This document shows positions 19,850-35,603 of a DNA stretch of 64,000 nt, piece by piece. The stretch comes from a bacterium (GTDB lineage: Bacteria > Verrucomicrobiota > Verrucomicrobiia > Verrucomicrobiales > Akkermansiaceae). Numbering within the stretch: position 1 is the stretch's first letter; the number at the start of each line of letters is the position of its first letter. Position numbers and translations under genes: made by a program. The notes under the pieces are model-generated. The model saw nothing but the letters and a program-made list of their open reading frames with translations. It had not been told where the DNA came from and made no database searches. The DNA is taken from contig JAAEZT010000005.1 of the NCBI GenBank assembly GCA_018222765.1, positions 73,663 through 137,662 of the forward strand, given 5' to 3'.

Positions 19850-20593
19850 ATGGCTAATTTCTTTCCTCGTTGGGCAAATTTAATGCCGCTGAAAATTGCG
19901 GTTTGCCTCGGAGCAGTCGGTGCTGGTGTGGTAGCGGGTATTACTTATTATGCTACGCCGAAGGCGCAGCGTGTGGGATATCAACCTACCCAGCCGATCC
20001 ATTATGATCACAATCTTCACGCGAATCAGCTCGGTATGGACTGCCGATACTGCCATAGCTTTGTGGAGCATTCCGGGCATGCCAATGTGCCGACGGCAAA
20101 TACGTGCTGGAATTGTCACAGCAGCATTAAGAAAGGCTCGCCAAAGTTAGCCGGACTTCGTGCTGCCATGGCGGTCGACGAAAACCACGCTCCTCTTCAG
20201 GATGCCGATGGCAATGCTGTTGAGGGTAAGCCGATCAAGTGGGTTCGGGTGCACAAGTCCCCTGATTACGTCTACTTCAACCATTCCGCACACCTGAACC
20301 GGGGAATTTCCTGTCAGAGCTGCCACGGAGACGTGCACAAGATGGAAAAGGTCTATCAGGCCGAGAGTCACTCGATGGGTTGGTGTCTCGACTGTCACCG
20401 CAATCCTGAGGAGCACGTCCGTCCGCTCGAAGAGGTCTATAATCTTGATTACGATCCCGCCGAATATCTCGAAGAGAACGACGTAAGAGATCTGGATAAC
20501 AATCGGATCACCGAGCCCGAAGAATTTGGCAAGTTCCTTGTCGCCCACTGGGGCATTCAGCCCAAAGAGTCCTGTGCGACTTGTCACCGTTAA
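19850..20593 (+). CDS. actA: Alternative complex III subunit ActA, pentaheme cytochrome c
   Basis: 247 residues with one N-terminal TM (about 12-34) and five CxxCH motifs: CRYCH, CWNCH, CQSCH, CLDCH and CATCH. ActA carries electrons from the ActB iron-sulfur chain/quinol site toward the monoheme cytochrome and oxidase, on the periplasmic side. First gene of the long operon, 15 bases before actB, directly behind the tandem palindromes. Five hemes agree with known ACIII. Confidence 0.95.
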   Translation: MANFFPRWANLMPLKIAVCLGAVGAGVVAGITYYATPKAQRVGYQPTQPIHYDHNLHANQLGMDCRYCHSFVEHSGHANVPTANTCWNCHSSIKKGSPKLAGLRAAMAVDENHAPLQDADGNAVEGKPIKWVRVHKSPDYVYFNHSAHLNRGISCQSCHGDVHKMEKVYQAESHSMGWCLDCHRNPEEHVRPLEEVYNLDYDPAEYLEENDVRDLDNNRITEPEEFGKFLVAHWGIQPKESCATCHR

Positions 20594-20607
20594 TTTGAAA
20601 CCCTGAG

Positions 20608-23600
20608 ATGAGTAAACGCGTCTGGAATCCACCAGTAGCTCCACACGAGAGCGACTCTGTCACTGCTTGGCGTAGTGTTGGAGAAAAAGAAGGATCACTA
20701 AATTTCCGCAATCTTCTCGAGCGTGAATTCCCGGCAGGGGATACCTTGACCGAAGAGGAGCAAAATGTTTCCCGTCGGAACTTCACCAAACTCATGGGGG
20801 CCTCGACCGCTCTGGCTGGTCTTGGGTTGGCGGCTTGCCGTCGTCCCGAAAGTTACATCGTCCCTTATAAGAAGGCCCCAGAGTGGATCATCCCTGGAAA
20901 GCCACTTTTCTATGCCTCGGCTCACCCGCAAGTCGGAGGGGCTGTGCCTTTGGTGGTGACGACGTACGAAGGTCGTCCGACCAAGATTGAAACCAACACT
21001 GATCATCCCGACGGGAACGGCACCAATGCCTTCACTCAGGCTTCGGTCCTCGATCTCTATTCACCGACTCGCTCACAGAAGGTCATCAAAGGCGGCCAAG
21101 TCGCAACCAAGGGCGAGTTGAAAGATGCCCTTGCCGCTCTCGATCTCTCGAAGACCGCGTTGGTTTTCGGAGAAGATGATTCACCAACTCGCAACCGCCT
21201 CGCCAAGCAATTTGCGGAGAAAGGTGCGACTTTGATTTCTTACGAGCCGCTTTCGCCGAAGTCTCACAAAAGGGGAACGACTCAGGTGATCGATTTTGCC
21301 GGTGCAGATCGCATTCTCTCGCTCGACTGCGACTTCCTGGGAAATGACACTGTCGGCAATGGATGCGAGTTTTCGCGCCGTCGTCAGGGAGGTAATGAAA
21401 ACTACGATCAGGAAGGTGATGTCGATCCTGAAAAGATGAATCGCCTTTATCAGGTGGAGACGCAATTCAGTCTCACCGGAGGAATGGCCGATCACCGTTT
21501 GCGGGTGGCCCCTAGTCGCGTCGCCATGGTGGCTGCCGAAATCGCGAGATCGTTTGGAATCGCCGTGGGTAACCCTCCAGATGAAGAGGAAAAGGCTGCT
21601 CTTTTTCCAGGCGGATCAGCGGATCTCTTTGATCAATGGATCGGTGCTTGTGCGGCTGACTTGACCGTTGCTGGTTCTGGTGCCTTGGTCGTAGCTGGAT
21701 CGCGTCAGACCAAGGAAGTTCACGATCTCGCGGCCGCAATCAATGCCAAGCTTGGCGCGGCCGCGGTCAAGACGGTGAAGACTGACCTGGGGCAGTACGG
21801 CTCTCTTGCTGACCTCTCCGCCAAGTTAGAAGGTGGCGACGTTGAAAACGTTATTCTGATGACGCCTGCCGATCCGGTCTTCGATGCCGATGGATTTGCC
21901 GAGGTGTTTGGGAAGGCCCAAACAACCATTCACTGGGGCCTTCGCAACAATGCTACGGCGTGGGCTTGCGACTGGCATGTTCCGGCAGCGCATTATCTCG
22001 AAAGTTGGGGGGACGCCCGCAGCAAGAGGGGTGTATACACCTTGATCCAACCGATGATTCTTCCGCTATACGGAGGTGTTTCCGAATTGGAGTTTCTCCA
22101 CGTTCTCGGCGGAGGTGAGTTTGCAAAAGGTGATTTCTCTCCGGCAATGGGAGAAGTGAAGACGACCTTCGGGGAGTTAACTGGCAAGTCTGATTCTGAG
22201 ACATGGGGCGAGGCCTTGAGAGAGGGCTTTGTAGCCGACACCTCATACGAAAGCGCTGAAACCCCCAGCGTAGATTTGGTCAACGCTCAATTGCCCGCAG
22301 CACCGTCGCCAACAGCGCTTGAACTAGTTTTCTCGACCGATGCCTCCGTTTACGATGGGCGCTATATCGAGAATGCCTGGCTTCAGGAGGCACCCGACCC
22401 AATCACGAAGTTGACTTGGGATAATGCGGCTCAAGTTTCCCCACAGACGGCCAAAGATCTCGGTCTCTACGATAAGATTATCAAGTTGGAAACCAAGACG
22501 GCTGAGGAAGCTCACATTGGAGAGGGGGAAAATGCCCGCGCTCCCATGATCACCATTGAGGTGGGCAACAGAAAGCTCACCGTGCCCGTTTTGATTGCGT
22601 TTGGTCATGCCGACAATGCCCTGACTCTCCCGGTAGGATACGGTCAAGCTGCCGACGATGATCGTGCCGGTGTCAACAAGCTTGATCCGGATGCCGCGGT
22701 TGTCGGGCACGTCGGGGTGAACACCGGATTTAATACCTATTTGTTGCGTTCCGCCGAGACTCCTTACTTCGCTACCGGTGTGAAGGTTTCCGAAACGGGC
22801 GAGACATACAAGGTGGCCCTGACCCAAGAGCACCATTCGATGTATGGTCGCGCTCTGGCGCGGGAGATCTCCACCGATGATGTGTCCGGAAAAGGGGACT
22901 ACAAAGCGCAGCTTGAAAAGGTTAAAAAGCAGGGAATCGATTCTCACGTTCCTCCTAATATTTCGCTCTATGATCCGAAGGGCGGGATTTGGTCAAAGTC
23001 GGATATGGCCAAGAAGACCCACCTTTCCGATGAAGTCCATCAGTGGGGAATGGCGATCGACCTAAATACCTGCACAGGATGTAATGCATGTTTAATTGCC
23101 TGCCAGGCCGAGAATAATATTCCGGTTGTGGGCAAAGACCAAGTCGCGATGGGTCGCGAGATGCACTGGATCCGTATGGATCGCTACTTTGCCTCTCAGG
23201 AATACGAATACAGCGGCGGTCACAAGGTCAAGGACAAGGAAGGCAACAAGATTGCTAATCCTGACTGGGTTACGCAGAATCCCGAATCGATTCCGCAACC
23301 GGTTTCCTGCGTGCAGTGCGAGATGGCCCCCTGCGAGACAGTTTGTCCGGTGAATGCCACGGTCCACACCGAGGACGGCATCAACTCGATGGCCTACAAC
23401 CGTTGTATCGGAACGCGTTACTGCGCCAACAACTGCCCATACAAGGCCCGTCGTTTCAACTTCTTTGACTACAACAAGCGCAACCCGCTGATCAAAGGTA
23501 ACCTCTACAAGGGGCCTTTCGGTGAAAAGCAAGTGGGGGAAGCACCGCATCTCCAGAGAAACCCCAACGTGTCTGTTCGGATGCGTGGTGTGATGGAGAA

Positions 23601-24027
23601 ATGCACCTACTGTGTGCAGCGTCTTGAGTCCGCCAAGATCAAGCAGAAGCAGCAGCACAAGCAGAAAGTTGCGAGAGCCGGCCTTCATTCCGCCAAGGTC
23701 GAGATTGACCCGAAGAAGGATCTTCGTGTTCCTACCGACAGCATCCAAGTGGCCTGCCAATCAGCCTGTCCGAACGGGGGGATTTCCTTTGGAAACTTGC
23801 TCGATGAGGATTCACAAGTTGTCCGAGCGAAGGGCAACGAGCTTGATTCAATTAAGATCCTGAAAGGCGATAATTATAAGAAGATTGAAGGCAGCAAGCG
23901 CAACTACGACTTGCTCAACTACGTCAATACCCGTCCGCGCACGAGCTACCTGGCCCGTGTGAAGAATCCGAATTCGAAAATGCCCGATGCGAAATTCCTC
24001 GGTCAGGCAACGATCAACATTCACTAA
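20608..24027 (+). CDS. actB: Alternative complex III subunit ActB (molybdopterin-oxidoreductase-like fused to Fe-S domain)
   Basis: 1139 residues. A Tat-type motif SRRNFTKLMGAS (55-66) lies after a long N-terminal extension. Residues to about 780 form the molybdopterin-oxidoreductase-like domain, which in characterised ACIII has no Mo cofactor. From about 800 the ferredoxin-like part holds CTGCNACLIACQ, CVQCEMAPCETVCPVN, CIGTRYCANNCPY and CTYCVQRL with CQSACP, giving three [4Fe-4S] and one [3Fe-4S] in the known complex. It relays electrons from quinol oxidation to the c hemes. actC follows after 31 bases. Confidence 0.95.
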   Translation: MSKRVWNPPVAPHESDSVTAWRSVGEKEGSLNFRNLLEREFPAGDTLTEEEQNVSRRNFTKLMGASTALAGLGLAACRRPESYIVPYKKAPEWIIPGKPLFYASAHPQVGGAVPLVVTTYEGRPTKIETNTDHPDGNGTNAFTQASVLDLYSPTRSQKVIKGGQVATKGELKDALAALDLSKTALVFGEDDSPTRNRLAKQFAEKGATLISYEPLSPKSHKRGTTQVIDFAGADRILSLDCDFLGNDTVGNGCEFSRRRQGGNENYDQEGDVDPEKMNRLYQVETQFSLTGGMADHRLRVAPSRVAMVAAEIARSFGIAVGNPPDEEEKAALFPGGSADLFDQWIGACAADLTVAGSGALVVAGSRQTKEVHDLAAAINAKLGAAAVKTVKTDLGQYGSLADLSAKLEGGDVENVILMTPADPVFDADGFAEVFGKAQTTIHWGLRNNATAWACDWHVPAAHYLESWGDARSKRGVYTLIQPMILPLYGGVSELEFLHVLGGGEFAKGDFSPAMGEVKTTFGELTGKSDSETWGEALREGFVADTSYESAETPSVDLVNAQLPAAPSPTALELVFSTDASVYDGRYIENAWLQEAPDPITKLTWDNAAQVSPQTAKDLGLYDKIIKLETKTAEEAHIGEGENARAPMITIEVGNRKLTVPVLIAFGHADNALTLPVGYGQAADDDRAGVNKLDPDAAVVGHVGVNTGFNTYLLRSAETPYFATGVKVSETGETYKVALTQEHHSMYGRALAREISTDDVSGKGDYKAQLEKVKKQGIDSHVPPNISLYDPKGGIWSKSDMAKKTHLSDEVHQWGMAIDLNTCTGCNACLIACQAENNIPVVGKDQVAMGREMHWIRMDRYFASQEYEYSGGHKVKDKEGNKIANPDWVTQNPESIPQPVSCVQCEMAPCETVCPVNATVHTEDGINSMAYNRCIGTRYCANNCPYKARRFNFFDYNKRNPLIKGNLYKGPFGEKQVGEAPHLQRNPNVSVRMRGVMEKCTYCVQRLESAKIKQKQQHKQKVARAGLHSAKVEIDPKKDLRVPTDSIQVACQSACPNGGISFGNLLDEDSQVVRAKGNELDSIKILKGDNYKKIEGSKRNYDLLNYVNTRPRTSYLARVKNPNSKMPDAKFLGQATINIH

Positions 24028-24058
24028 TCTCTGAGAATCTATTCCTGCGACTGAACCT

Positions 24059-25588
24059 ATGTCCGAAGCGACCACACAGTCTGAAAACAACGCGCCCGAG
24101 GTGAAGATCCCGGTGCTTGAGCGTGAGAAGTTGATTCTCAACGAGCGTTCATACCACTGGATCACCGAACGGATCTGCGGAGTGATTGAAAACCGCCAGC
24201 CCTTCCTTTGGTGGATCCTGTTCATCCCCAGTGCCCTCATTGCTCTCATCGGAGTGGTTGGCGGCCTGACTTACCTCGTTTCGACCGGGGTAGGGGTATG
24301 GGGAAACACCAACCGTGTGATGTGGGGATGGCCTATCGTGAACTTCGTTTTCTGGATTGGTATTGGTCACGCCGGAACACTGATCTCGGCGATTCTTTTC
24401 CTGACCCGCCAAAATTGGCGAACCTCGATTAACCGCGCGGCTGAAGCAATGACGATCTTCGCGGTGATGTGTGCCGGTATTTTCCCGGCCTTCCACGTTG
24501 GTCGTGTCTGGATGGCCTGGTTCCTCGCTCCGATCCCGAATTCCAACGCGATCTGGCAGAACTTCAAATCGCCTCTTCTTTGGGACGTTTTCGCGGTGTC
24601 GACTTACTTTACCGTGTCATTGATCTTCTGGTTTCTCGGCATGGTTCCCGACCTCGCGACTATTCGCGATCGTTGCAAGCCCGGCATCCGCAAGTTTATG
24701 TACGGCTTGTTCTCCCTCGGCTGGCGCGGTGGAAACCGCCAATGGAGCCACTACGAGATGGCCTACCTTCTTCTCGCTGCTCTTTCCACTCCTCTGGTGC
24801 TCTCAGTTCACTCGGTCGTTTCGTTCGACTTCGCAACCTCCGTGGTTCCCGGGTGGCACACCACCATCTTCCCGCCCTACTTCGTGGCGGGTGCGATCTT
24901 TGGTGGATTTGCCATGGTGCTCACGATCATGATTCCAGCCCGCGCCATTTATGGTCTGCACGACATGATCACGATGAAGCATATCGATAACATGGCCAAG
25001 ATCATCCTCCTGACCGGGACGATCGTGGGTTATGCTTACTTGATGGAGCTCTTCATCGCCTTTTATTCCGGAGCAAAATACGAGGGCGCGGCCTTCCTCT
25101 ACCGAATCGACGGGCCGTACTGGTGGGCCTACTACGCCATGATGAGCTGTAACGTGCTCTCGCCCCAAATCTTCTGGTTTAAGAAGATGCGAGAAAACCT
25201 CTGGGTCGTCATGATCGTCGCGATGTGTGTGAACATCGGAATGTGGTTCGAGCGTTTCGTGATCATTGTCACCACTCTGGCCCGCATGTGGCTGCCGGGT
25301 GACTGGAAGACCTACAGCCCGAGTGACGTTGATGTCCTGACCTTTGTTGGAACGATCGGCATGTTCCTCGCCCTCTTCCTTCTCTTCCTCCGATTCCTCC
25401 CATGTATTAACATTGCCGAGGTCAAGTGGACTCTCAAAGAGAGTGATGCTCATGACGACGACAAAAAGGCCCATCCTGACGACGGCGTCGAAGTTATCGA
25501 AGCCTACCAATACGAAATTCACGAAAACCCCGACGGTGCTGCCATTGAGGCTGGTCGCGAGGTGAAACCAGCTGCAGAAAACGCATGA
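24059..25588 (+). CDS. actC: Alternative complex III subunit ActC (NrfD-like quinol-oxidising membrane subunit)
   Basis: 509 residues with about ten TM helices of the NrfD/PsrC fold. It binds quinol and is proposed to take part in proton translocation. NrfD-type marks include [12 protein letters not shown] near the N-terminus, [20 protein letters not shown] and [15 protein letters not shown] charged, His/Asp-rich C-terminal tail of about 55 residues ends the protein. Its stop codon overlaps the actD start (ATGA at 25585-25588), so the two are translationally coupled. Confidence 0.95.
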
Positions 25589-26142
25589 GCACGAAAGTCC
25601 GCAGAGTCTACGGCTACCTAGCCGAATTCAAAAACGCCTCGCAGCTTTACAAGGCTGCCGAGAAAGTCCGCGATGCCGGGTTTAAGAAGTGGGATTGTTA
25701 CACTCCTTATCCGGTTCATGGCCTCGACGATGCCATGGGTGTAAAGCGTTCAATTCTTCCTTACTTTGTCTTCGTCGGAGGTCTCACCGGTTTCATCACC
25801 GCGATCATCCTGGCATACGGCACGCAGGTCGGACTGTACCCCACCATTGTGCAGGGTAAGCCCGCAAATATCCACACCATCTCGGCCTTTTTCCCGGTGA
25901 TGTTCGAGCTGACCATTCTTTTGTCTGGTTTCACGGTGCTTTTCGGCCTTCTTGCCCTGATCGGTCTGCCACGCTGGAATCACCCCATCTTCTCGAGCAA
26001 GCAATTCTCGCGGGTGACCGACGACAAATTCTTCATCGCCATCGAGGCGCGTGACGCCAAGTTCTCTGCTGAGGCAACGAAGTCACTTCTCGACGAAATC
26101 GGCGGCGCTAACATCGAACTTGTGGAGGACGATTCAGAGTAA
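25585..26142 (+). CDS. actD: Alternative complex III subunit ActD
   Basis: 185 residues (DUF3341 family) with two TM helices (about 58-80 and 105-130). Cytoplasmic parts flank them: the N-terminus carries the [23 protein letters not shown] motif typical of ActD. It is a structural subunit of ACIII. It overlaps actC by four bases and actE follows after three. Confidence 0.93.
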
Positions 26143-26145
26143 CCC

Positions 26146-26772
26146 ATGAAATACTTTTTCTTAGCTTACCTTGCTGTGGCACTCCTCGTCGTTGGAGTGT
26201 TGGGTTTCCGTGGTGACAAGTTTTCTCAGGCACCTCTCGAGGTTTTTCCAGACATGGATAATCAGGATAAGTTAAAAGGGCAGATGCCCTCCGGCTTCTT
26301 TGCTGATGGGGTGGGATCTCGCAAGCCAGTCATGGGCACGGTTCCCCGTGGCGCTGACAGCGGTGTTCTGCCGATCGAATTCGGAGCAGGTCGCACCGGT
26401 TACTACTTCACCGGAGCACTTGGCGATAAATTCGGCAATGGCATGCCCGAGGAGCTTAAGCTCGAGAGCGCAGAGGACAGCCGGGCGCTTCTCACCCGCG
26501 GTAAAGAAATGTATGATGTTAATTGCGCGATCTGCCACGGCGAGTCCGGAAACGGAAAAGGCGTCATCAACCAATTCGAAGGCGCGATGAAGGGCAATAT
26601 TGCCAATCTTCTCACTGATTCCTTTAAGCAAGTCGCTGCTCCCGACGGTTACATATACGAGGTTATCTCAAACGGCAAAGGCCTGATGGGTGGCTACAAA
26701 CACAATCTTCCCGTGCGGGATCGATGGGCCATCGTGGCTTATCTCCGCGCTCTTCAGGCATCCGCCAAATAA
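26146..26772 (+). CDS. actE: Alternative complex III subunit ActE, monoheme cytochrome c
   Basis: 208 residues. An N-terminal hydrophobic anchor (about 3-20) is followed by one cytochrome c domain with CAICH (127-131) and GLMGGYKHNLPV near the C-terminus, which holds the probable axial Met. In characterised ACIII, ActE is the exit heme to the oxidase. Many ActE are lipoproteins; no lipobox cysteine is visible here, so anchoring is by the helix. Confidence 0.92.
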   Translation: MKYFFLAYLAVALLVVGVLGFRGDKFSQAPLEVFPDMDNQDKLKGQMPSGFFADGVGSRKPVMGTVPRGADSGVLPIEFGAGRTGYYFTGALGDKFGNGMPEELKLESAEDSRALLTRGKEMYDVNCAICHGESGNGKGVINQFEGAMKGNIANLLTDSFKQVAAPDGYIYEVISNGKGLMGGYKHNLPVRDRWAIVAYLRALQASAK

Positions 26773-26796
26773 TTTTTCAAATCAGCTGATCGAGAC

Positions 26797-28134
26797 ATGG
26801 CACACCAAGTCACATCCAAAGACATCCCGACCGACGGCGAGCATCTTGAGAAAAGCAAAATCGCTCTTCTCCAGACCATCACCGGTGGAATTGCGGCTGT
26901 CGGGCTCGTTGCGAGTATCGCATTTTTATTCTTCGGTGGCGGTGAAAACGGCACGAAGTTGCACGGATCCTATTCCTTTTCCTGGCTCCTCGCGGTCTTC
27001 TTTGTCCTGACGATCGCCATGGGCGGTTGCTTCTGGACCTTCCTCCACAATCTCTCGAATTCAGGGTGGGGGACTTCGGTTCGCCGACTCATGGAGAACT
27101 TGGGCTTTGTTTTCCCATTCCTGGCGCTTTTCGCTATTCCTTTCCTCTTCCCCGGCGTGCAGCAGTATCTCTGGGAGTGGATGACTTCATTCAAGGCTGC
27201 CGTGGGAGCTCACCCGGGGATGTCTTCGAGTGATGCCCTCATGCATAGCGAAAACATGCATGACCATCTTCTTGCGAAGAAAACCTTTTATCTCAGCCCA
27301 GGATTCTGGCTGGCCCGTTTTTTCCTGTTCTTTGGTCTTCTTGGATTTTTCATCTGGTTCGTGCGTGGTTTTTCCATCAAGCAGGATACCGATCCCAATC
27401 CCGGCACCAAGAATCTCTTCGCAGCCCGCAAGCATTCTTCGTGGTCAATGATCGTTTTTGGGGTGACCTTGACCTTCCTCGCCATCGACTGGGTAATGGC
27501 TCTCGATTATTCATGGTTCTCCACCATGTTCGGGGTATACGTCTTCGCCGGATCAGCTCTCAGCAGTATGGCCGTTCTCATATTGACCGCGCTTCTGCTT
27601 CAAAAATTCGGTTACCTCAAGAAGGTTGTCACCGAGGAGCACTTCCATATCATGGGTAAGCTCACCTTCGCCTTCACGGTGTTCTGGGCCTACGTGTCCT
27701 TCTCCCAGTTCTTCTTATACTGGTATGCCAATATCCCGGAGGAAACACGCTACTTCATCCTGCGAAATACCGGAAACTGGAATGTTCTTAGTATCGGTCT
27801 GGTCTTCCTGCACTTTGCCCTGCCATTCCTCGTGCTCCTTCGTTCCGATGTGAAGAAGAAGCCCAAGTTCATGATCATTCTCTGCATCTACATTCTCGTG
27901 GTGCACTTTGCTGACGTCTATCATATGATTATCCCGGAACGTGGACCCTCGGTGGGTCTGGTCGTGGAACATCAGGCTGAACTCTGGCTCAATCATTCCT
28001 TCTGGGGAGATTTCCTCGCTCTGGTAATTGTCCTCTCCGGATTCGTCTTCTTCTTCCTCCGCAATTTAACCTCCGCTGCTCTCTACCCGAATCGCGATCC
28101 CCGCATTCTGGAGTCAGCCAACCTTCATAATTAG
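26797..28134 (+). CDS. actF: Alternative complex III subunit ActF (second NrfD-like membrane subunit)
   Basis: 445 residues with about ten TM helices, NrfD-like and paralogous to ActC. Recognisable segments are WLLAVFFVLTIAMGGCFWTFLHNLS, SGWGTSVRRLMENL and MALDYSWFSTMFGVYVFAGS. It is taken to be a pseudo-quinol site or proton-path subunit of ACIII. It is followed after two bases by the small gene at 28137. Confidence 0.94.
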   Translation: MAHQVTSKDIPTDGEHLEKSKIALLQTITGGIAAVGLVASIAFLFFGGGENGTKLHGSYSFSWLLAVFFVLTIAMGGCFWTFLHNLSNSGWGTSVRRLMENLGFVFPFLALFAIPFLFPGVQQYLWEWMTSFKAAVGAHPGMSSSDALMHSENMHDHLLAKKTFYLSPGFWLARFFLFFGLLGFFIWFVRGFSIKQDTDPNPGTKNLFAARKHSSWSMIVFGVTLTFLAIDWVMALDYSWFSTMFGVYVFAGSALSSMAVLILTALLLQKFGYLKKVVTEEHFHIMGKLTFAFTVFWAYVSFSQFFLYWYANIPEETRYFILRNTGNWNVLSIGLVFLHFALPFLVLLRSDVKKKPKFMIILCIYILVVHFADVYHMIIPERGPSVGLVVEHQAELWLNHSFWGDFLALVIVLSGFVFFFLRNLTSAALYPNRDPRILESANLHN

Positions 28135-28136
28135 TC

Positions 28137-28478
28137 ATGGATCATACCCGCGATAATCCGCTCAAGCGATTCGCTGCCTTTTGGATAGCGGCTCTCCTCA
28201 TTGCGAGCTTTGCCATTGCCTGCGTCATTTTTCGTCCAATGACCCACGGAGATGTCACTACTAACTATGACGTGAAGTCTGAAGCCCGGATCGAGCTCGT
28301 GTCCGAAGCCCGCGCTGCGCAGGAAGCCGCTCTCAACACGGCCGCCCTTGAGAAAGCGATCACCGAACCATCTGATAATCTTCACAAGCAGGTTCCCACG
28401 CCTGGTTCCAAGCCACTCGTTGCACCCGCACCCGCGGAAACTCCCAAGGAGGACGAAAAACCTGCCCCCGCAGAATAA
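28137..28478 (+). CDS. Single-TM Ala/Pro-rich protein of the respiratory operon
   Basis: 113 residues. One TM helix (about 13-32) is followed by a charged helix (EARIELVSEARAAQEAALN) and a Pro/Ala/Lys-rich tail. No heme or metal motif and no recognised family. It starts two bases after actF and ends 27 bases before the CcoN-like gene. Size and topology suggest an accessory subunit or linker between ACIII and the following oxidase-like module, but this is inferred from position only. Confidence 0.75.
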   Translation: MDHTRDNPLKRFAAFWIAALLIASFAIACVIFRPMTHGDVTTNYDVKSEARIELVSEARAAQEAALNTAALEKAITEPSDNLHKQVPTPGSKPLVAPAPAETPKEDEKPAPAE

Positions 28479-28505: not shown

Positions 28506-30014
28506 ATGGCCGAGACTACTTCCAATGCCGATTCCCTCGATGTCGACCTGCGTGCGGCGATCGACCGTTCGCTGCGTCATCCCGTGATGTTCTTTTTTTC
28601 GAGCGGTGCCGTTTGGCTCGCCCTCTCAATCGTCCTTGGATTGATTGCTTCTGCAAAAAAGCACGCGCCCGATTTCCTTAATTGCTTTTCCTTTTTGGAT
28701 GCCGGAAAGATCGATGCCGCTCATATGAGCACCCTGACTTATGGATGGGGAGCCCAGGCTGCCTTCGGAATGCTTATTTGGCTGATGTCCCGCCTTTCCC
28801 GCAAAGAATGCACCGCCTCGGGAGTTATTCTCGTTGCCGGGCACATATGGAATGCTGCCGTAGCCTACGGAGTTCTTTGTATCATGGGTTCCGGATCCCT
28901 GGGGCCGTGGTTCGAGAGTTCCGGAGTTGCCGGGATGGAATTTCCAGGCGGGGTATGGGTTGTTCTTTTGGTCAGCTTCATCATGATCTCGATCTGGTCC
29001 CTGATTCAGTTTCAAGTTCGTGATGCCGGCCACGTTTATGTCAGCCAGTGGTATCTCCTCGCAGCGATGCTTTGGCTCCCATGGATCATGGTAACGGCAT
29101 GGCTCTTTGTCTTTGTCTTTGACGGAAGTCCCCTGATGGCCACCGGAATTGCTTCCTGGTTCAAAGGAACCGTCTTCGCCCTCTTCTTTTTGCCAGTTGC
29201 ACTTGCGAGTGCCTACTACCTTGCTCCGAAAGTCACCGGACGCCCGGTATACAGTTACAATATCGCCCTCTTCGGATTCTGGTCTCTCGCCGTGATAGGG
29301 CCTTGGGTGGGAATGCAGAAATTGGCCGGGGCACCAATTCCTCAGTTTCTTCCCGCAGCCGGAGCTGCCGCCATGGTGATGATCCTCATTCCCGCACTTT
29401 CGGTCGGAGTGAATATTCTCCGGACCGTGCAAGGTCATGAAAAGACCGTCGCGCTGAGCCCCTCAATGAGATTCACTGCCTCCGGAATCGTCCTCTTTGT
29501 GGGGTATGGAGTTCTCTCTTTCGCCTTGAACAACAACATTGGCCTGAAGGTTTCCCAGTTTAGCTATGCGGGATACGGTTTGGATATCCTTGGCCTCTAC
29601 GGAGTGTTCTCCCTCTGTGCCTTCGGTGCAATTTACTTTATCGTTCCCCGCATAACCCGCCGTGAGTGGCTTTCCCGGCGCTTCATTCGCTGGCACTTCT
29701 ATCTTTCCCTCTACGGACTTGCCTCGATCGTGATTTGCGCCGTGGTTGGCGGTTTCTTCCAGGGGCAGGGGACTGAGGATCTGACACAGCCTTTCCTGAC
29801 GGGAGCACGGCGAGCCGCTGCATACGGATGGGGCATTACCCTTGCTTGGGGTTTCCTTCTTCTCGCGAACCTATTCTTCTGCCTCCATCTTCTCCTGATG
29901 TGGGCCCGCCTCGGGCGTCGTTCCTCCCACCCGACTCTCCTGAACAATCATCATGCTGAAAGTCCCCACGGACCGGAAGGGGAGGTTGATAACTACGGGT
30001 CAGCGACTGTTTAA
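28506..30014 (+). CDS. CcoN-like (cbb3 oxidase subunit I) protein lacking the catalytic metal ligands
   Basis: 502 residues with about twelve TM helices and clear CcoN colinearity: RDAGHVYVSQW (CcoN RRVKHIYVANW), AYYLAPKVTGRPVYSYN (CcoN MYYFIPKQAERPVYSYR) and AIYFIVPR. Aligned without gaps to the CcoN consensus around these anchors, YGHN is FKGT (CuB His to G221), the crosslinking Tyr is G265 and the CuB His pair is Q271-K272. GHVHSGALG is GLDILGLYG, so the heme b3 and second heme b histidines are L359 and I361. Only H73, the first low-spin heme ligand, is kept. It cannot reduce oxygen by the known mechanism. Gene position between ACIII and aa3 oxidase suggests a structural or wiring role. 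The frame is intact and the rest well conserved, so it is not a pseudogene. Confidence 0.9.
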   Translation: MAETTSNADSLDVDLRAAIDRSLRHPVMFFFSSGAVWLALSIVLGLIASAKKHAPDFLNCFSFLDAGKIDAAHMSTLTYGWGAQAAFGMLIWLMSRLSRKECTASGVILVAGHIWNAAVAYGVLCIMGSGSLGPWFESSGVAGMEFPGGVWVVLLVSFIMISIWSLIQFQVRDAGHVYVSQWYLLAAMLWLPWIMVTAWLFVFVFDGSPLMATGIASWFKGTVFALFFLPVALASAYYLAPKVTGRPVYSYNIALFGFWSLAVIGPWVGMQKLAGAPIPQFLPAAGAAAMVMILIPALSVGVNILRTVQGHEKTVALSPSMRFTASGIVLFVGYGVLSFALNNNIGLKVSQFSYAGYGLDILGLYGVFSLCAFGAIYFIVPRITRREWLSRRFIRWHFYLSLYGLASIVICAVVGGFFQGQGTEDLTQPFLTGARRAAAYGWGITLAWGFLLLANLFFCLHLLLMWARLGRRSSHPTLLNNHHAESPHGPEGEVDNYGSATV

Positions 30015-30036: not shown

Positions 30037-30771
30037 ATGACATTCAAATCTTTTATTTTCGGATTGCTCGCCAGCTTTGGGTTACCATGGCTTGCTGTGG
30101 TTGTTTTTCCTTTTTCCAAAATGCGTGCCCTTGACCCTGCTAAATTCGAAGAGGGTGATAGAAAAGGCCAGGCATACAGCCCGATGAGGGACGGACGGGT
30201 GAACGAAGGGTCAAAGATCTACGGACAAGAAGGATGCTACCACTGTCACACGCAGTTGATTCGCCCAACATACGCTGGTCCGGATGTGCATCGCGATGAA
30301 TGGGCCGGATTGCGACTGACTGCAGATAACCCCGACACTCGTCGTGAGACTGTCCCGACTGATTACGAAGGCGAGGACGTCGCACACATTGGTTTGGGCC
30401 GGGTCGGGCCGGATCTCTCCAATCTGGGGCGTCGTCTTGATCATTACTTGAAGGGAAGAGATCTCACGCCCGAAATGTGGCTTTATCTCCACCTCTACAG
30501 TCCGCGGACCAACACTGGCTATGTTGACAACGACCAGGAGATCCACTCGCATTCCACTTGTCCTTCCAAGTCTGGTTTATTTAAGGAAATTCCGGCAGTT
30601 CAAGCTGGCGGACAGGCTCTCCCGCTTTATACTCCGGACGGCGTGGCCGTCATTCCGACCGACCGGGCCCGTGCTCTTGTCAGTTACCTTGCGTCCCTGA
30701 AAAAAGACACCCTCGGTGCTCCTCTTCCAGAGGCCTATAATTTGAATCCAACTGCTCCCACAAAGGAATAA
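30037..30771 (+). CDS. CcoO-like monoheme membrane cytochrome c
   Basis: 244 residues from ATG 30037, chosen because it puts the TM anchor (about 3-25) at the N-terminus as in CcoO; an ATG at 29953 would overlap the CcoN-like gene by 62 bases. EGCYHCHTQLIRP is the CcoO heme site (CxxCH at 67-71) and VGPDLSNLGRR follows as in CcoO (TGPDLARVGG). Where CcoO has SNMPGYPWLF with the axial Met, this protein reads STCPSKSGLF. The sixth heme ligand would therefore be C175, or one of the histidines just before it in EIHSHS. It is the natural partner of the CcoN-like protein; the third gene of the set follows after three bases. Confidence 0.88.
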   Translation: MTFKSFIFGLLASFGLPWLAVVVFPFSKMRALDPAKFEEGDRKGQAYSPMRDGRVNEGSKIYGQEGCYHCHTQLIRPTYAGPDVHRDEWAGLRLTADNPDTRRETVPTDYEGEDVAHIGLGRVGPDLSNLGRRLDHYLKGRDLTPEMWLYLHLYSPRTNTGYVDNDQEIHSHSTCPSKSGLFKEIPAVQAGGQALPLYTPDGVAVIPTDRARALVSYLASLKKDTLGAPLPEAYNLNPTAPTKE

Positions 30772-30774
30772 AAC

Positions 30775-31548
30775 ATGTCTGATCAACAGTCATCTGGGGA
30801 CCTTCGTCCTGATCTCGACGAGAAAATCAATGTCGCTGATGCCCACGCTTCGCTTGGGGAAACTCCTGCGGTGAATCGTGAAAAGCGTGTCACTGAAAAT
30901 GGCATGGAGCCCGTTTCCCTTGGACTGATTCTTCTTTCTGGATTCGTGATGCTTGTTGGAGGAGCAGTCCTCGGAAAAGGCGGGGGATTTTTCGATTATG
31001 ACGAACTTTATCTCGACGGCATGGTGCGCGCACCCGATACAGCCGGTCCTCCTCCTGTTATTCTTCCAGCACCTGCATTGGCTCTCCTCAGCAAGGAGGG
31101 CGCGAAGGTTTACTCGAAATGCGCCGGTTGCCACGGAGCGGGCGGAGCAGGGGGATCTGGGATTCCTCCTCTTGCGGGTTCCGAGTGGGTCACCGGACCG
31201 ACCGAACAGCTTTCTCAAATCATTTACCACGGGGTGTCCGGACCTATCGAGGTCGGCGGGGTTGCGTATAACGGCGTAATGCCAGCGCAGGGGCTCGGCC
31301 TTGGAAAGAAGGAGCTTGCCGCAGTGATGACCTACATTCGAAACGACTGGGGTAACAAGGCGTCTGTTGTTTCTGTTGAGCAAGCCGCCAAGGCTCTCGA
31401 AATCGCCAATGCGCGTGGAGATGGGGCGGTGACTGTCGAAGAACTTAAAAAGAATTACGATAAGGACCTTGCAGGGGCAGAGTTGCTTCCCGAGACCTTG
31501 ATCGATCCAATCACCTTTGAGCCTGTCGAGGTCCAGGCCGCAAAATAA
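30775..31548 (+). CDS. Membrane-anchored monoheme cytochrome c (CcoP-like position)
   Basis: 257 residues: a charged cytoplasmic N-terminus, one TM (about 48-66), a linker and a cytochrome c domain with CAGCH (116-120) and NGVMPAQG giving the axial Met. About 60 C-terminal residues after the domain include an EF-hand-like ANARGDGAVTVEEL. CcoP normally has two hemes; this has one. It resembles the cytochrome domain of the gene at 1-1199. It may pass electrons between ActE, the CcoO-like protein and CuA of the aa3 oxidase. coxA follows after 24 bases. Confidence 0.88.
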   Translation: MSDQQSSGDLRPDLDEKINVADAHASLGETPAVNREKRVTENGMEPVSLGLILLSGFVMLVGGAVLGKGGGFFDYDELYLDGMVRAPDTAGPPPVILPAPALALLSKEGAKVYSKCAGCHGAGGAGGSGIPPLAGSEWVTGPTEQLSQIIYHGVSGPIEVGGVAYNGVMPAQGLGLGKKELAAVMTYIRNDWGNKASVVSVEQAAKALEIANARGDGAVTVEELKKNYDKDLAGAELLPETLIDPITFEPVEVQAAK

Positions 31549-31572: not shown

Positions 31573-33447
31573 ATGAGCGCAGACTCTCACGATGACCACC
31601 ATCATCAACAGTCCTTTTGGACTAAATACCTTTTTTCAACCGATCACAAGACCATCGGAATCCAGTATGGTCTGGCTGCTGGAGCGTTTCTCTTATTCGG
31701 GTTTTTCCTGATGATTGTGATGCGCTGGAGCATCGCGTATCCCCATGAGCCGCTCCCCGGTTACTTGAGCTGGATTTTTACCGATGGCTGGAAAGCACGT
31801 TGGTTGGATGGGGGTAAAGTAACAGGGGAGACCTACAACATGTTCGGTGCGATGCACGGAACAATCATGGTTTTCCTTGGGGTTGTGCCTCTCGGTTTCG
31901 CAGCTTTTGGTAACTACGTGACCCCTCTCCAGATTGGTGCTCCCGATATGGCCTTCCCAAAACTCAATATGGCCAGCTTCTGGGTTTATCTGCTTGGAGG
32001 ACTCATCATGTGCGCCAGCTTCTTCATGGAGTCAGGTGCAGCCAAGTCCGGATGGACCAACTACTCACCGCTCGCCGGCTATGCGGACAAGCAGATTGTG
32101 AATCAGCTTCTGGCTGGCCAGACGCAATGGTTGATCGGATTAGTCTGTCTGATTACTTCTTCACTGCTCGGTTCAGTAAACTTTGTCACTACCATCATCC
32201 AACTGCGCGCCAAGGGATTGACTTGGATGCGCCTTCCTTTCTTCGTTTGGGCCATGTTGGTGACCGGATTCCTTCTCCTCCTTGCCTTCCCACCGCTTGA
32301 AGCCGCCGGCATTATGCAGCTGATGGACCGGATGACTGGTTCGTCATTCTTCATGCCTTCCGGACTTTACTCTCGGACCGATGGAGTGATGGAGCTTTCC
32401 GGCAGTGGTAGTCCGCTTCTCTTCCAGCACCTCTTCTGGTTCTTGGGACACCCTGAGGTGTATGTGCTCCTTCTGCCGGCCATTGCTTGTGTCGCGGAGA
32501 TTATTCCCTGCCACACCCGTAAACCTCTCTGGGGATACAAGCCTATGGTGTGGGCGGTGATCGTTCTTGGATTCCTCTCCTTCATCGTCTGGGCGCACCA
32601 CATGTATCTCACTGGAATGGGACCGGTCATTTCGACCTTCTTCCAAACAACCACGGTTCTGATTTCAGTGCCCTCGGTGATTCTCCTCACCTCCATGATT
32701 ATCTCGCTGTGGGGCGGTTCCATCCGTTTCACCATGCCAATGATCTGGGCGGCGGCCTTCCTGCCTATGTTCGGAATTGGTGGTCTTACTGGACTCCCGC
32801 TAGCCTTCAACCTGGCGGACCTGCACCTCCACGACACCTATTACGTGATCGGGCACTTCCACTACGTGGTAGCCCCCGGAATTCTCTTTGGTCTCTTCGC
32901 TGGTGTTTACCACTGGTATCCCAAGATGACGGGTCGCTTCATGGACAACACACTTGGGCATCTTCACTTCTGGCCGTCCCTGATTTGCATGAACTTCCTT
33001 TTCTTCCCGATGCTTACCCAGGGAATGGCAGGTTTCCACCGCCGTTGGTATAACGGTGGGGACGCCTACCTTGAAAAGGCGTCCGATGGAATTAATGTCT
33101 TCGGCCTGACCGTGGCCGAAAAAATCTCACTCAACGAGGTAATGACTGTTTCCGCGATTGCGCTCGCACTTGCCCAGGTTCCTTTCCTAGTGAACATGTT
33201 TGTAAGTTATTTCTGGGGTAAGAAAGTCACTAGTGACAACCCCTGGGATGCAACCACCCTCGAATGGGCTACTCCGACGCCTCCGGGACACGGAAACTTT
33301 ACCTTCGACATCTCGGTTTACCGCGGTCCATACGAATACAGCCGTCCTGATCATGGTGAGGACTACTTCCCCCAGTGGGAGGAACCCAAGCGCTCCGAAT
33401 CCGGTGAGGACGAGAGCGAAGAACCCGCCGAGGAAACCAAGGCTTAA
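31573..33447 (+). CDS. coxA: Cytochrome c oxidase aa3-type subunit I
   Basis: 624 residues, twelve TM helices. It reduces O2 to water and pumps protons. All metal ligands are present: heme a H95 and H430, heme a3 H428, and CuB H293, H342 and H343, with the crosslinking Y297 in GHPEVY. The D-channel is complete: IGAPDMAFP Asp and the E295 of HPEVY mark an A1-type enzyme. By contrast the K-channel lysine (in PTGIKVFSW of typical A-type oxidases) is replaced: the sequence is PSVILLTSM, with Leu at that place. Long His-rich N-terminus and an acidic C-terminal tail. coxC follows after 21 bases. Confidence 0.96.
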   Translation: MSADSHDDHHHQQSFWTKYLFSTDHKTIGIQYGLAAGAFLLFGFFLMIVMRWSIAYPHEPLPGYLSWIFTDGWKARWLDGGKVTGETYNMFGAMHGTIMVFLGVVPLGFAAFGNYVTPLQIGAPDMAFPKLNMASFWVYLLGGLIMCASFFMESGAAKSGWTNYSPLAGYADKQIVNQLLAGQTQWLIGLVCLITSSLLGSVNFVTTIIQLRAKGLTWMRLPFFVWAMLVTGFLLLLAFPPLEAAGIMQLMDRMTGSSFFMPSGLYSRTDGVMELSGSGSPLLFQHLFWFLGHPEVYVLLLPAIACVAEIIPCHTRKPLWGYKPMVWAVIVLGFLSFIVWAHHMYLTGMGPVISTFFQTTTVLISVPSVILLTSMIISLWGGSIRFTMPMIWAAAFLPMFGIGGLTGLPLAFNLADLHLHDTYYVIGHFHYVVAPGILFGLFAGVYHWYPKMTGRFMDNTLGHLHFWPSLICMNFLFFPMLTQGMAGFHRRWYNGGDAYLEKASDGINVFGLTVAEKISLNEVMTVSAIALALAQVPFLVNMFVSYFWGKKVTSDNPWDATTLEWATPTPPGHGNFTFDISVYRGPYEYSRPDHGEDYFPQWEEPKRSESGEDESEEPAEETKA

Positions 33448-33468: not shown

Positions 33469-35175
33469 ATGGAAATCCCATTTGTCGTTAACGCCCGCAA
33501 AGACACCGGTCTCAATAATTCAAAGGTTGGTATCTGGCTCTTCCTCGCTTCCGAGGTGACTCTCTTTGGAGGTCTCTTCTCAGGCTACCTTTTCCTTCGC
33601 CTCTACGCCGATTACCCCTGGCCGGAGCGCGCTCTTCCGATCCTCCCCGGATTGATTAACACCTTTATTTTGATCGGTTCATCCGTGACGGTGGTTTTTG
33701 CTTGGGCGGCTCTCAAGATGAGGGAGTGGCGGAAGTTTCAGGTCCATATGTCGATTACGATAGCGTGTGCCCTTGGGTTCATGGTGTTGAAGGCAATCGA
33801 ATACAACGCCAAGTTTAGTCACCATGCCGTGCGTATTAGCGATAGCGGTCCGGTGGAAGGATATGGAATTCTCGAGGGACACAAAAAGAAGGTGGTCCTT
33901 GAGGAGAATGATCGTCTGCATGTGGTCCACAAAGAGAATGGGAAGTATCCCGAGGAATCTTTTGATGCCAACCGCATTGTTTTCAAGGCTTCGGAGATGA
34001 CCTTCACTCTGACCCGCCCGGTTCACGATGCGTTTGTGATTGAGATTTTGAAACAGGCCGCGAAGAGAGACTCGAAAATCACCCTCGTCGAAGACTATGC
34101 GGTCATGGATGAGGATCAGATCGGGAAAGATGGCGCTGAGAAAACCAAGGTCTTGAAAGCCGGTGACGAACTGACCACCGATGCGCTCGATAAAGCTGAG
34201 AATGTTTTCCTCGATTCCCGGGCACATGATTCAGCCATTCGCACCAACTTTGAAAAGGCCTCCTGGGCATGGATCCGTGATGAAAAAGGGATTGATAAAC
34301 CCGGTTACAACATCATCGATTTGGAAGTCTGGAAAGAACGTCGCAAGGAGGACAACGAGAAGTTGAAGCCCTTGATGATTGGAGCTGAATCTGGAATTAC
34401 CTTTAGGGTTGAACCAGCTCTGACCCTGATTCTCGAACCAAGTTGGATGACATCCAACGGTCGCAACACCGAGCAGCTCAAATTGCGCGATGACACGGTG
34501 ATCAAAGGGGAAATGCTCGAAAGTCCAATGATTCTCGGAGTTGATGCCATTGACTTTAGCTTCACCGCAATGCGGGCCAGGGAGCAGGGTCTCGATCCTG
34601 CTGCAGTGATCGAGAAAAGTTGGATTGTTCAGGAGCCTCAGTTAAAGGCGATTTGGGAAAATCATCAGGAATGGTTAAAGGGGGAGACTGCCCGTCTTGC
34701 GAAGAAAGATCGTGAGCCATCGGATCTTGATAAGTATCGCGTCACCTGGCAAAAAATCGTGGCATACGGTCAGGCAAAGGAGGCTGATCCTGACGCAGAC
34801 CTTGCCAAAATGGCTGAGGAGCAAACTTTGGCGCTCCCAGGCTGGTTGGATGGGTTTGCAGGTGCCGATCACTACAATCCGGAGATGGTCAAACACTTCC
34901 CTGAGGTGAGCATTCCCCGCGACAAGGTCGACTTTGAGTCAACCTTCACTCCGAAATGGAACACCTACTATGCCATTTATTTCACCATTACCGGGCTCCA
35001 CGGACTTCACGTGATCGGTGGTATGATTGTTCTCGGATACTACCTTTTCTTCGGACGCAAAATGTATGATAGTAACCCTGACTGGCTCGCAAACCGCGTC
35101 GAAGTCGGGGGGCTCTTCTGGCACTTTGTAGACCTTGTCTGGATCTTCCTATTCCCGATCCTCTATTTGATGTAA
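33469..35175 (+). CDS. coxC: Cytochrome c oxidase subunit III with large inserted domain
   Basis: 568 residues, about three times the usual length. Five TM helices of standard subunit III are recognised: TM1 20-46, TM2 57-82, TM3 93-112 (ending in the EY motif), TM4 about 499-528 (TGLHGLHVIGG) and TM5 about 547-568 (GGLFWHFVDLVWIFLFPI). Between TM3 and TM4, where about 20 residues are normal, lies a charged insertion of about 375 residues without heme motif or cysteine. By subunit III topology this loop faces the periplasm, the side of the cytochromes. The frame is continuous and the insertion is lysine/glutamate-rich with alternating beta and helical stretches; no family recognised. Confidence 0.92.
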   Translation: MEIPFVVNARKDTGLNNSKVGIWLFLASEVTLFGGLFSGYLFLRLYADYPWPERALPILPGLINTFILIGSSVTVVFAWAALKMREWRKFQVHMSITIACALGFMVLKAIEYNAKFSHHAVRISDSGPVEGYGILEGHKKKVVLEENDRLHVVHKENGKYPEESFDANRIVFKASEMTFTLTRPVHDAFVIEILKQAAKRDSKITLVEDYAVMDEDQIGKDGAEKTKVLKAGDELTTDALDKAENVFLDSRAHDSAIRTNFEKASWAWIRDEKGIDKPGYNIIDLEVWKERRKEDNEKLKPLMIGAESGITFRVEPALTLILEPSWMTSNGRNTEQLKLRDDTVIKGEMLESPMILGVDAIDFSFTAMRAREQGLDPAAVIEKSWIVQEPQLKAIWENHQEWLKGETARLAKKDREPSDLDKYRVTWQKIVAYGQAKEADPDADLAKMAEEQTLALPGWLDGFAGADHYNPEMVKHFPEVSIPRDKVDFESTFTPKWNTYYAIYFTITGLHGLHVIGGMIVLGYYLFFGRKMYDSNPDWLANRVEVGGLFWHFVDLVWIFLFPILYLM

Positions 35176-35219: not shown

Positions 35220-35603
35220 ATGGCTGATTCAGTTGCAGAAATTCAAAAGGCAAAGAAGCTCTATTTCTTTATTGGAATGCTTCTCTTCTTCTTCACCGTT
35301 GTGACCGTGCTGGTGGCGACTGTCGAGGCACTCGATTTTGGTGATCACGGTTTTGACGGGGTGGATGCCACCATTGGTTTGATCATCGCGGCGTTCAAAG
35401 CTTCGTTGGTGATGATTATTTTTATGCACCTCAATCACGAGAAGCCCTTGATTTACTTTTTCTACGGATTAGCTCTTCTCATGGCCTTCTTCTGTTTGTG
35501 GCTCATTGGCTGGTCCAAGAGTGATCCCATTCAGTTTGGAAACCCGACGAAAGTCGATGGATTCTACAATCCGGCGAATCCAGCTACCGACGTTCACGAT
35601 TAA
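35220..35603 (+). CDS. coxD: Cytochrome c oxidase subunit IV
   Basis: 127 residues with three TM helices (about 14-36, 49-68, 76-98). KASLVMIIFMHLNHEKPLIY is the typical prokaryotic subunit IV segment. It stabilises the subunit I/III contact. It follows coxC by 44 bases; an Ala/Asp-rich C-terminus ends in DVHD. Confidence 0.92.
   Translation: MADSVAEIQKAKKLYFFIGMLLFFFTVVTVLVATVEALDFGDHGFDGVDATIGLIIAAFKASLVMIIFMHLNHEKPLIYFFYGLALLMAFFCLWLIGWSKSDPIQFGNPTKVDGFYNPANPATDVHD

Follow-up and report, generated by a model that had tools for sequence, protein, structure and literature searches.

In Rhodothermus marinus and Flavobacterium johnsoniae, whose ACIII forms supercomplexes with oxidases, the oxidase genes often lie directly after those of ACIII, a direct hand-over of electrons has been proposed, and the association of ACIII with aa3 or caa3 oxidases is known (PMC5928083). 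In verrucomicrobial methanotrophs and Opitutaceae, ACIII adjoins a C-type oxidase, which two papers take as cbb3 (PMC6688271, PMC8498564). The window described here, a 64,000-nucleotide stretch of DNA from a member of a family that we take as Akkermansiaceae (f1), resembles the second group in that CcoN- and CcoO-type genes adjoin its ACIII genes, and differs from the first in that its ACIII and aa3 oxidase genes are separated by those of a dead C-family module and of a cytochrome c. To our knowledge, the R. marinus and F. johnsoniae supercomplexes hold no CcoN/CcoO module. Within the open-licence literature of PubMed Central that we searched, which leaves most subscription papers outside, we found no account of a CcoN next to ACIII that lacks its ligands.

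The CcoO-like protein of the window, P0001, also invites comparison with c-type hemes that are bound by His and Cys. Potentials near -180 mV for TsdA and at or below -400 mV for SoxAX are given in PMC6879331. TfcP, which carries Cys exactly at the Met position, lies at -304 to -320 mV; electron transport is judged unlikely for it, and Cys variants accumulate poorly (PMC8833165). P0001 shares with these proteins a Cys at the distal axial position, and TfcP is the closest parallel, with a role outside electron transfer; these are, however, other proteins in other contexts, and the ligation in P0001 is inferred from sequence. We propose, with a probability of roughly 0.55, that a dead C-family oxidase has been kept as a non-catalytic module of ACIII, the heme of its CcoO-like subunit being His/Cys-ligated, probably of low potential, structural, and off the main electron path.

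Organization of the Locus

The genes of interest form a co-directional run of actABCDEF, an anchor protein, the CcoN-like and CcoO-like genes, a cytochrome c gene, and an aa3 set in the order I, III, IV, II (Table 1), with the ACIII operon upstream. ActD matches Pfam PF11821 (E 6e-60), ActC matches NrfD, and ActC and ActF match solved ACIII chains (6f0k/6btm); ActA is multiheme, ActE is mono-heme, and ActB has iron-sulfur domains. The order Act-CcoN-CcoO-cytochrome c is conserved. Of 34 order-level loci, 32 have CoxA directly after this run and 31 have ActF before the module, the other three ending at contig ends. Between positions 28000 and 31700 no promoter-like sites were found (1.6 expected from shuffles), and terminator-like sites number 13 on both strands, against 4.7 expected.

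Table 1. Coordinates of the superoperon features in the window.
Feature	Coordinates	Strand	Basis or remark
ACIII genes ActA-ActF	19850..28134	+	starts 19850, 20608, 24059, 25585, 26146, 26797
113-aa membrane-anchor protein, no heme motif	28137..28478	+	no Pfam match
CcoN-like subunit, 502 aa	28506..30014	+	COX1 E 2.6e-34; ccoN 78 bits vs cut-off 583
CcoO-like mono-heme cytochrome c, P0001	30037..30771	+	244 aa; FixO/ccoO matches under curated cut-offs
Heme c attachment motif CYHCH, Cys67-His71	30235..30249	+	translation; CxxCH in all rows tallied
Cys175 codon TGT, axial Met position	30559..30561	+	translation and alignments
Mono-heme cytochrome c, CAGCH and GVMPA	30775..31548	+	PF00034 E 6.7e-11
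aa3-type oxidase subunit I	31573..33447	+	COX1 E 1.6e-128, CtaD_CoxA; ligands intact
Oxidase subunit III, long insertion	33469..35175	+	PF00510 in two stretches
Oxidase subunit IV (COX4_pro)	35220..35603	+	profile match
Oxidase subunit II, CuA residues	36071..36877	+	COX2/CoxB only

ActE keeps its His and Met in 65/65 cases, and the operon cytochrome c has CxxCH and Met in all 183 rows, counted as the best match per locus with the loci of one genome unmerged; a merged recount gives 178 genomes. Subunit II retains its CuA residues in 26/26 rows; in the window's own subunit II the profile matches (COX2/CoxB only) gave no sign of a fused cytochrome c domain. Since the relevant residues of ActE, cytochrome c, and CuA are all kept, electrons have an intact route from ActE by way of cytochrome c to CuA that does not need the CcoO heme. 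No ligand of aa3 subunit I is replaced in any row, although many of these ORFs end before the later ligands. Subunit III is 568 aa long, with an insertion of ∼350 residues that splits its family match.

The small protein in the gap between ActF and the CcoN-like gene resembles the N-terminus, with its anchor and stalk, of an anchored cytochrome c with a single heme in sister genera. Homologues at the same spot in three loci (L036, L063, L064) bear CxxCH by eye, and the heme domain seems to have been lost in the window's lineage. One of these loci, L036 from genus g10 of f1, has the run ACIII-CcoN-CcoO-cytochrome c with no aa3 subunit I inside its 19 kb; in the six g10 genomes searched, a strong COX1 match lies on another contig or, in G281, ∼10 kb further on. 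A strict bridge from module to aa3 is thereby weakened as an explanation, since both g10 and genus g3 (below) have genomes that keep the module with no aa3 set directly following.

The Axial Ligand Position of P0001

P0001 is a relative of CcoO/FixO (PF02433, TIGR00781), with which it shares the EGCYxCHxQxIRP heme motif, the GPDL and HLYxPR segments, and the column of the ligand loop; it differs in having Cys for the axial Met, in its sub-cut-off scores, and in its dead CcoN partner. The preliminary description of this DNA had called the heme motif intact, and a single intact CxxCH is indeed present in the EGCxxCHxQ context. Profile searches place the protein just under threshold for FixO (28.6 bits, cut-off 29.6) and under that for ccoO (32.3, cut-off 200.65), and sequence comparison with solved structures finds cbb3 subunit II chains, aligned over the heme motif alone. 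It matched nowhere else in the source genome. An alternative start at the upstream ATG at 29953 was rejected because Met1 at 30037 is common to 73/73 stand-alone f1 rows.

The Met of the SxMPxYPWL motif, which we take to be the axial heme ligand in cbb3 structures, provides the reference point for the ligand loop. When the canonical CcoO half of a relative is aligned to PDB 3mk7_B, Met falls on Met (motif SKMPSYPWL), and in joint alignments Cys175 of P0001, within the loop STCPSKSGLF (residues 173-182), falls in the axial-Met column of canonical CcoO halves of the SNMPAYPWLF type. The Met of the SxMPxYxxL loop is absent from P0001, and Cys occupies the distal axial position by alignment, as in His/Cys cytochromes c. 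That a Cys stands in place of the axial Met was the central claim of the preliminary description, and it is borne out, as is the invariance for which an orthologue alignment had been suggested as a check: Cys175 equivalents occur in 91/91 f1 genomes read, from 15 genera.

Further detail comes from 73 stand-alone f1 proteins; the fused g3 proteins were left out of this set as their membrane half is unalignable. Cys175 is among 21 fully invariant positions, and it is encoded by TGC in 40 rows and TGT in 33; because both codons are used, it is the residue and not the DNA that is kept. The ligand-capable residues found after the heme motif in at least 80% of rows are Tyr79, His152, Tyr154, Cys175, Tyr217, and Lys222. 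His152 is part of the HLYxPR segment, which is found also where Met persists, and no conserved ligand candidate besides Cys175 is new to f1. After the heme motif, Met stays below 30% of these rows in every column, and another Met was rejected as the axial ligand. The preliminary description had also offered a nearby His as the sixth ligand; this option falls away, as the His just before Cys175 is restricted to L001-L004.

We therefore consider it most likely, from this pattern of conservation, that the heme of P0001 is bound by His71 and Cys175; the conservation fits an iron ligand without proving it. An AlphaFold2 run on the window protein and L031-L035, from a six-row alignment, gave a mean pLDDT of 50, too low for the distance from Cys to iron to be read. 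A different use of Cys175, in binding copper, a disulfide partner, or a sulfur species, with the heme five-coordinate or on a non-conserved residue, appears very doubtful. Such a use would sit well with the Ser, Ala, Arg, or Lys that stands at this position in some other operons with a dead CcoN, which suggests that the fold is viable without a strong ligand there. Against it, Cys175 is the sole Cys after the heme motif in 68 of the 73 rows, it stands in the ligand column itself, and the Pro right after it is kept in 71. Many of the source genomes are fragmented assemblies, which might suggest that the change stems from an error of sequencing or assembly, or that the gene is a pseudogene in decay; the same Cys in 91/91 genomes, the two codons, and strong conservation elsewhere in the protein already contradict that reading, to which we give almost no credence.

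Loss of the Oxidase Site in the CcoN-like Partner

The CcoN-like protein has near full-length homology to CcoN (PF00115, TIGR00780), and all five of its PDB matches are cbb3 CcoN chains. Unlike CcoN, it is without the ligands of heme b3, CuB, and one side of the low-spin heme. At the six ligand columns, which read HHHHHH in the canonical CcoN of relatives, the window protein reads HGQKLI. The one His kept is the first of the low-spin heme (His73), and five of the six His of heme b, heme b3, and CuB are missing, so that the six-His set of cbb3 subunit I is not present: the CuB His of the WYGHN segment is replaced by Thr or Gly, depending on the alignment, the CuB His pair by Gln-Lys, the heme b3 His by Leu, and the second heme b His by Ile. 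The preliminary description was thus right that the oxidase site of this partner is gone, and from the loss of ligands the encoded CcoN-like complex is predicted not to reduce O2.

Among 40 class- and phylum-level loci, all six His are found in 18 and not in 22; ActC is encoded in 35 of the 40, the other five being one locus on a 5-kb contig and four phylum-level loci (L310-L313). The intact relatives share the ACIII operon, and the CcoO of all those read has Met. In the 53 dead rows of the tree described below, 16 have no His at the six columns, 27 have one, and 10 have two. The first low-spin column holds His in 27 of these rows and Phe in 8, and a His in the b3 column survives in one, L277. 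In L039, L294, and L295, all of them dead, both low-spin columns are occupied by His, and low-spin heme b may still be bound there. Two f2 genomes (G073, G104) carry an intact CcoN/CcoO/cytochrome c set (L209, L210) plus a dead copy close in sequence. A text search for GHxH as a marker of the intact site was abandoned, since the string is found in 3/53 dead rows and is missing from 6/24 intact ones.

In a CcoN tree of 77 rows, rooted on canonical CcoN and with the fused g3 proteins left out, dead forms make up two groups nested among intact ones, which takes two changes, both forced by starred branches; a single clade of dead forms is only weakly rejected (p-AU 0.038). A second tree left out 21 of the 77 rows, some because they were long or fast and others from among the order-level rows, as well as the residues around the ligands; its 56 rows need four changes, at least three of them forced, and reject a single clade with p-AU 0.00041. 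The changes on the tree and the p-AU values together make more than one independent loss of the site probable, with the genes staying beside ACIII throughout.

The distribution of other oxidases was also read. All 28 dead-form genomes examined have another COX1 match, at E 1.6e-91 or better; in the source genome the COX1 matches are aa3 subunit I and the CcoN-like protein only. In G392, which has an intact copy of the operon, that copy is the only COX1 match.

Order of Events across Families

The ligand residue of the CcoO-like protein was tallied by genome, with loci of the same genome merged, over genomes drawn by search and then picked to cover genera rather than sampled at random; L175, which ends before the ligand column, was entered as unreadable. 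The preliminary description took Met in most orthologues as the observation that would count against it, and here the outcome is divided: Met is absent from the f1 genomes read, and class-wide the 189 operon members read comprise 80 with Met and 94 with Cys, f1 being the most heavily sampled. Met is found in 24 of 25 members of f2 (the remaining one is truncated and unreadable), 17 of 18 of f4 (one Ala), 3 of 3 of f6, and 36 of 40 further class- and phylum-level members (two His, one Arg, one Lys), and f3 has seven Ser, three Cys, and two His (n = 12). Canonical cbb3 CcoO halves or fragments from the same order have Met in 22/22 genomes, as do the second, intact copies of the two f2 genomes. 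Because the neighbouring cytochrome c, ActE, and these canonical paralogues keep Met, its loss is specific to the CcoO-like protein.

The operon CcoN of f2, f4, and f6 is dead, and the CcoO-like protein still has Met there, apart from the one Ala in f4 and the unreadable member of f2; the loss of the oxidase site is hence older than the Cys. By this reading, the Cys arose after the site was lost, once on the branch leading to f1 and a second time in f3. The Cys had been described as paralleling the loss of the site, and that account holds for the loss itself and fails for a joint origin. In the dead-CcoN rows with Met, the heme may still be an electron carrier.

In the 77-row set, Met is present in 24/24 intact rows and in 30/53 dead rows, with 23/53 dead rows non-Met, and at least six changes between Met and non-Met are needed, all among dead forms. 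The dead forms account for 36.8 of 46.9 branch-length units, and the association of Met loss with a dead CcoN is not significant given branch length, since by length alone all six changes would fall among the dead forms ∼23% of the time (0.78^6 ∼0.23).

The Fused Module of Genus g3, Probably Akkermansia

Genus g3, which from its place in f1 we take to be Akkermansia, was sampled with 36 genomes. These comprise the full set of 17 that have a CcoO match and 19 without one among those listed. In the seven g3 modules read, one fused protein of ∼660-960 aa combines a membrane part, CcoO, and cytochrome c, and Cys is at the ligand position in 7/7 of the CcoO parts. Only the CcoO and cytochrome c parts of one such protein (L169) have Pfam matches; its position and one weak match (L172, 4e-06) suggest that the membrane part descended from CcoN. 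ActC is encoded in 17/17 of the g3 genomes with a CcoO match, and a COX1 family match is missing in 16 of them, the exception (G350) having one elsewhere. The module therefore appears to be linked more closely to ACIII than to aa3. Among the listed genomes without a CcoO match, 9/19 have a diverged ActC; these nine of the 26 ActC-carrying g3 genomes, with those lacking a CcoO match drawn from those listed, imply that ACIII can do without the module there and that the module can be lost.

A separate observation in g3 concerns a di-heme peroxidase family. A strong CCP_MauG match (E < 1e-40) occurs in 22/26 genomes with ActC and 2/10 without, over the 36 genomes used, where those without a CcoO match are among those listed (Fisher p 5.6e-4, kinship ignored). 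ACIII perhaps feeds a peroxidase in this genus.

The co-occurrence also bears on the possibility that P0001 is a sensor or small-molecule site, in which Cys would leave the iron on reduction or oxidation, so that NO, CO, sulfide, or peroxide could bind, with the module gating or protecting ACIII. Strict conservation of the Cys in f1 suits such a function, and work on thiosulfate dehydrogenase describes a Cys ligand that dissociates with a substrate mimic (PMC9562282). The peroxidase link is, however, one of co-occurrence only, with kinship ignored; profile searches gave no regulatory domain match in the module, and sister families with the same operon retain Met. We regard a sensor as improbable.

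Proposed Role of the Module

The Cys and its invariance, the loss of CcoN ligands, the conservation of the operon, and the repeated loss are read from sequence. From these we infer a Cys-Fe bond, a low potential, a scaffold role, and an electron route, as follows. The CcoN-like and CcoO-like proteins would be what is left of a cbb3 (C-family) oxidase whose genes stood with those of ACIII in Verrucomicrobiae and which was probably also in physical association with it. With its O2-reducing site lost, the task of reducing O2 would now fall to the aa3 oxidase downstream or elsewhere in the genome, and the CcoN-like protein would remain as a membrane scaffold. Together with the CcoO-like protein, it would hold the His/Met cytochrome c of the operon near the exit heme of ACIII (ActE), from which electrons would travel by way of this cytochrome c to the CuA centre of subunit II or a different acceptor in the periplasm. 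Ligation by His71 and Cys175 in Akkermansiaceae would lower the potential of the CcoO heme by hundreds of mV, taking it off the path from menaquinol to cytochrome c and leaving it a mainly structural role.

The low potential is argued by analogy with characterised His/Cys cytochromes. The menaquinone/menaquinol couple has a potential of about -70 mV. Since the His/Cys potentials are below that of menaquinol, a CcoO heme with this ligation would be ill suited to carry electrons from menaquinol to cytochrome c. The preliminary description had expected the heme to change its place in the electron path; we judge removal from the path likelier, because in other operons with a dead CcoN the ligand position has wandered to Ser, His, Ala, Arg, or Lys.

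The alternative, that the CcoO-like heme is a working relay from ActE to cytochrome c tuned to low potential by Cys ligation, we hold to be unlikely. It draws on the heme motif present in every row tallied, on a gene order that puts the CcoO-like protein between ACIII and cytochrome c, on the Met still present in many relatives, and on the fact that a single uphill electron step is tolerable over short distances. Measured His/Cys c hemes have potentials (PMC6879331, PMC8833165) that lie below menaquinol, and a relay is hard to reconcile with Ser, Ala, Arg, or Lys at the ligand position of some other dead-CcoN operons.

The proposed role of the module as a non-catalytic part of ACIII has a bearing on the verrucomicrobial methanotrophs. 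AMO genes are present in 5/5 genomes searched of family f8, which marks f8 as methanotroph-like. In the two f8 operons read of the five (L296, L297), CcoN is dead and an aa3 set lies downstream, arranged nearly as in the window. The published accounts read the oxidase of methanotrophs and Opitutaceae as cbb3, whereas the CcoN ligands are absent in L296 and L297, and the "cbb3 oxidase" beside ACIII in verrucomicrobial methanotrophs looks, from these sequences, like such a dead form.

Conclusions

For the larger account we would give even odds: the ACIII-cbb3 unit of Verrucomicrobiae would have lost its O2 site more than once, the gutted oxidase becoming permanent non-catalytic subunits of ACIII; in Akkermansiaceae the heme c would be a structural His/Cys heme, in Akkermansia the module would be fused in the absence of a heme-copper oxidase, and the "cbb3 oxidase" of the methanotrophs would be the dead form. 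If this is true, the turning of a heme-copper oxidase into a part without an O2 site, more than once, would be an unusual fate for the superfamily and would reveal which services other than catalysis ACIII requires of its partner. A test of whether a respiratory heme can be demoted to a structural part is offered by the natural series from Met to Cys to Ser/His to a fused module without oxidase. For annotation, dead genes that are counted as high-affinity cbb3, as in verrucomicrobial methanotrophs, would lead to a wrong oxygen physiology.
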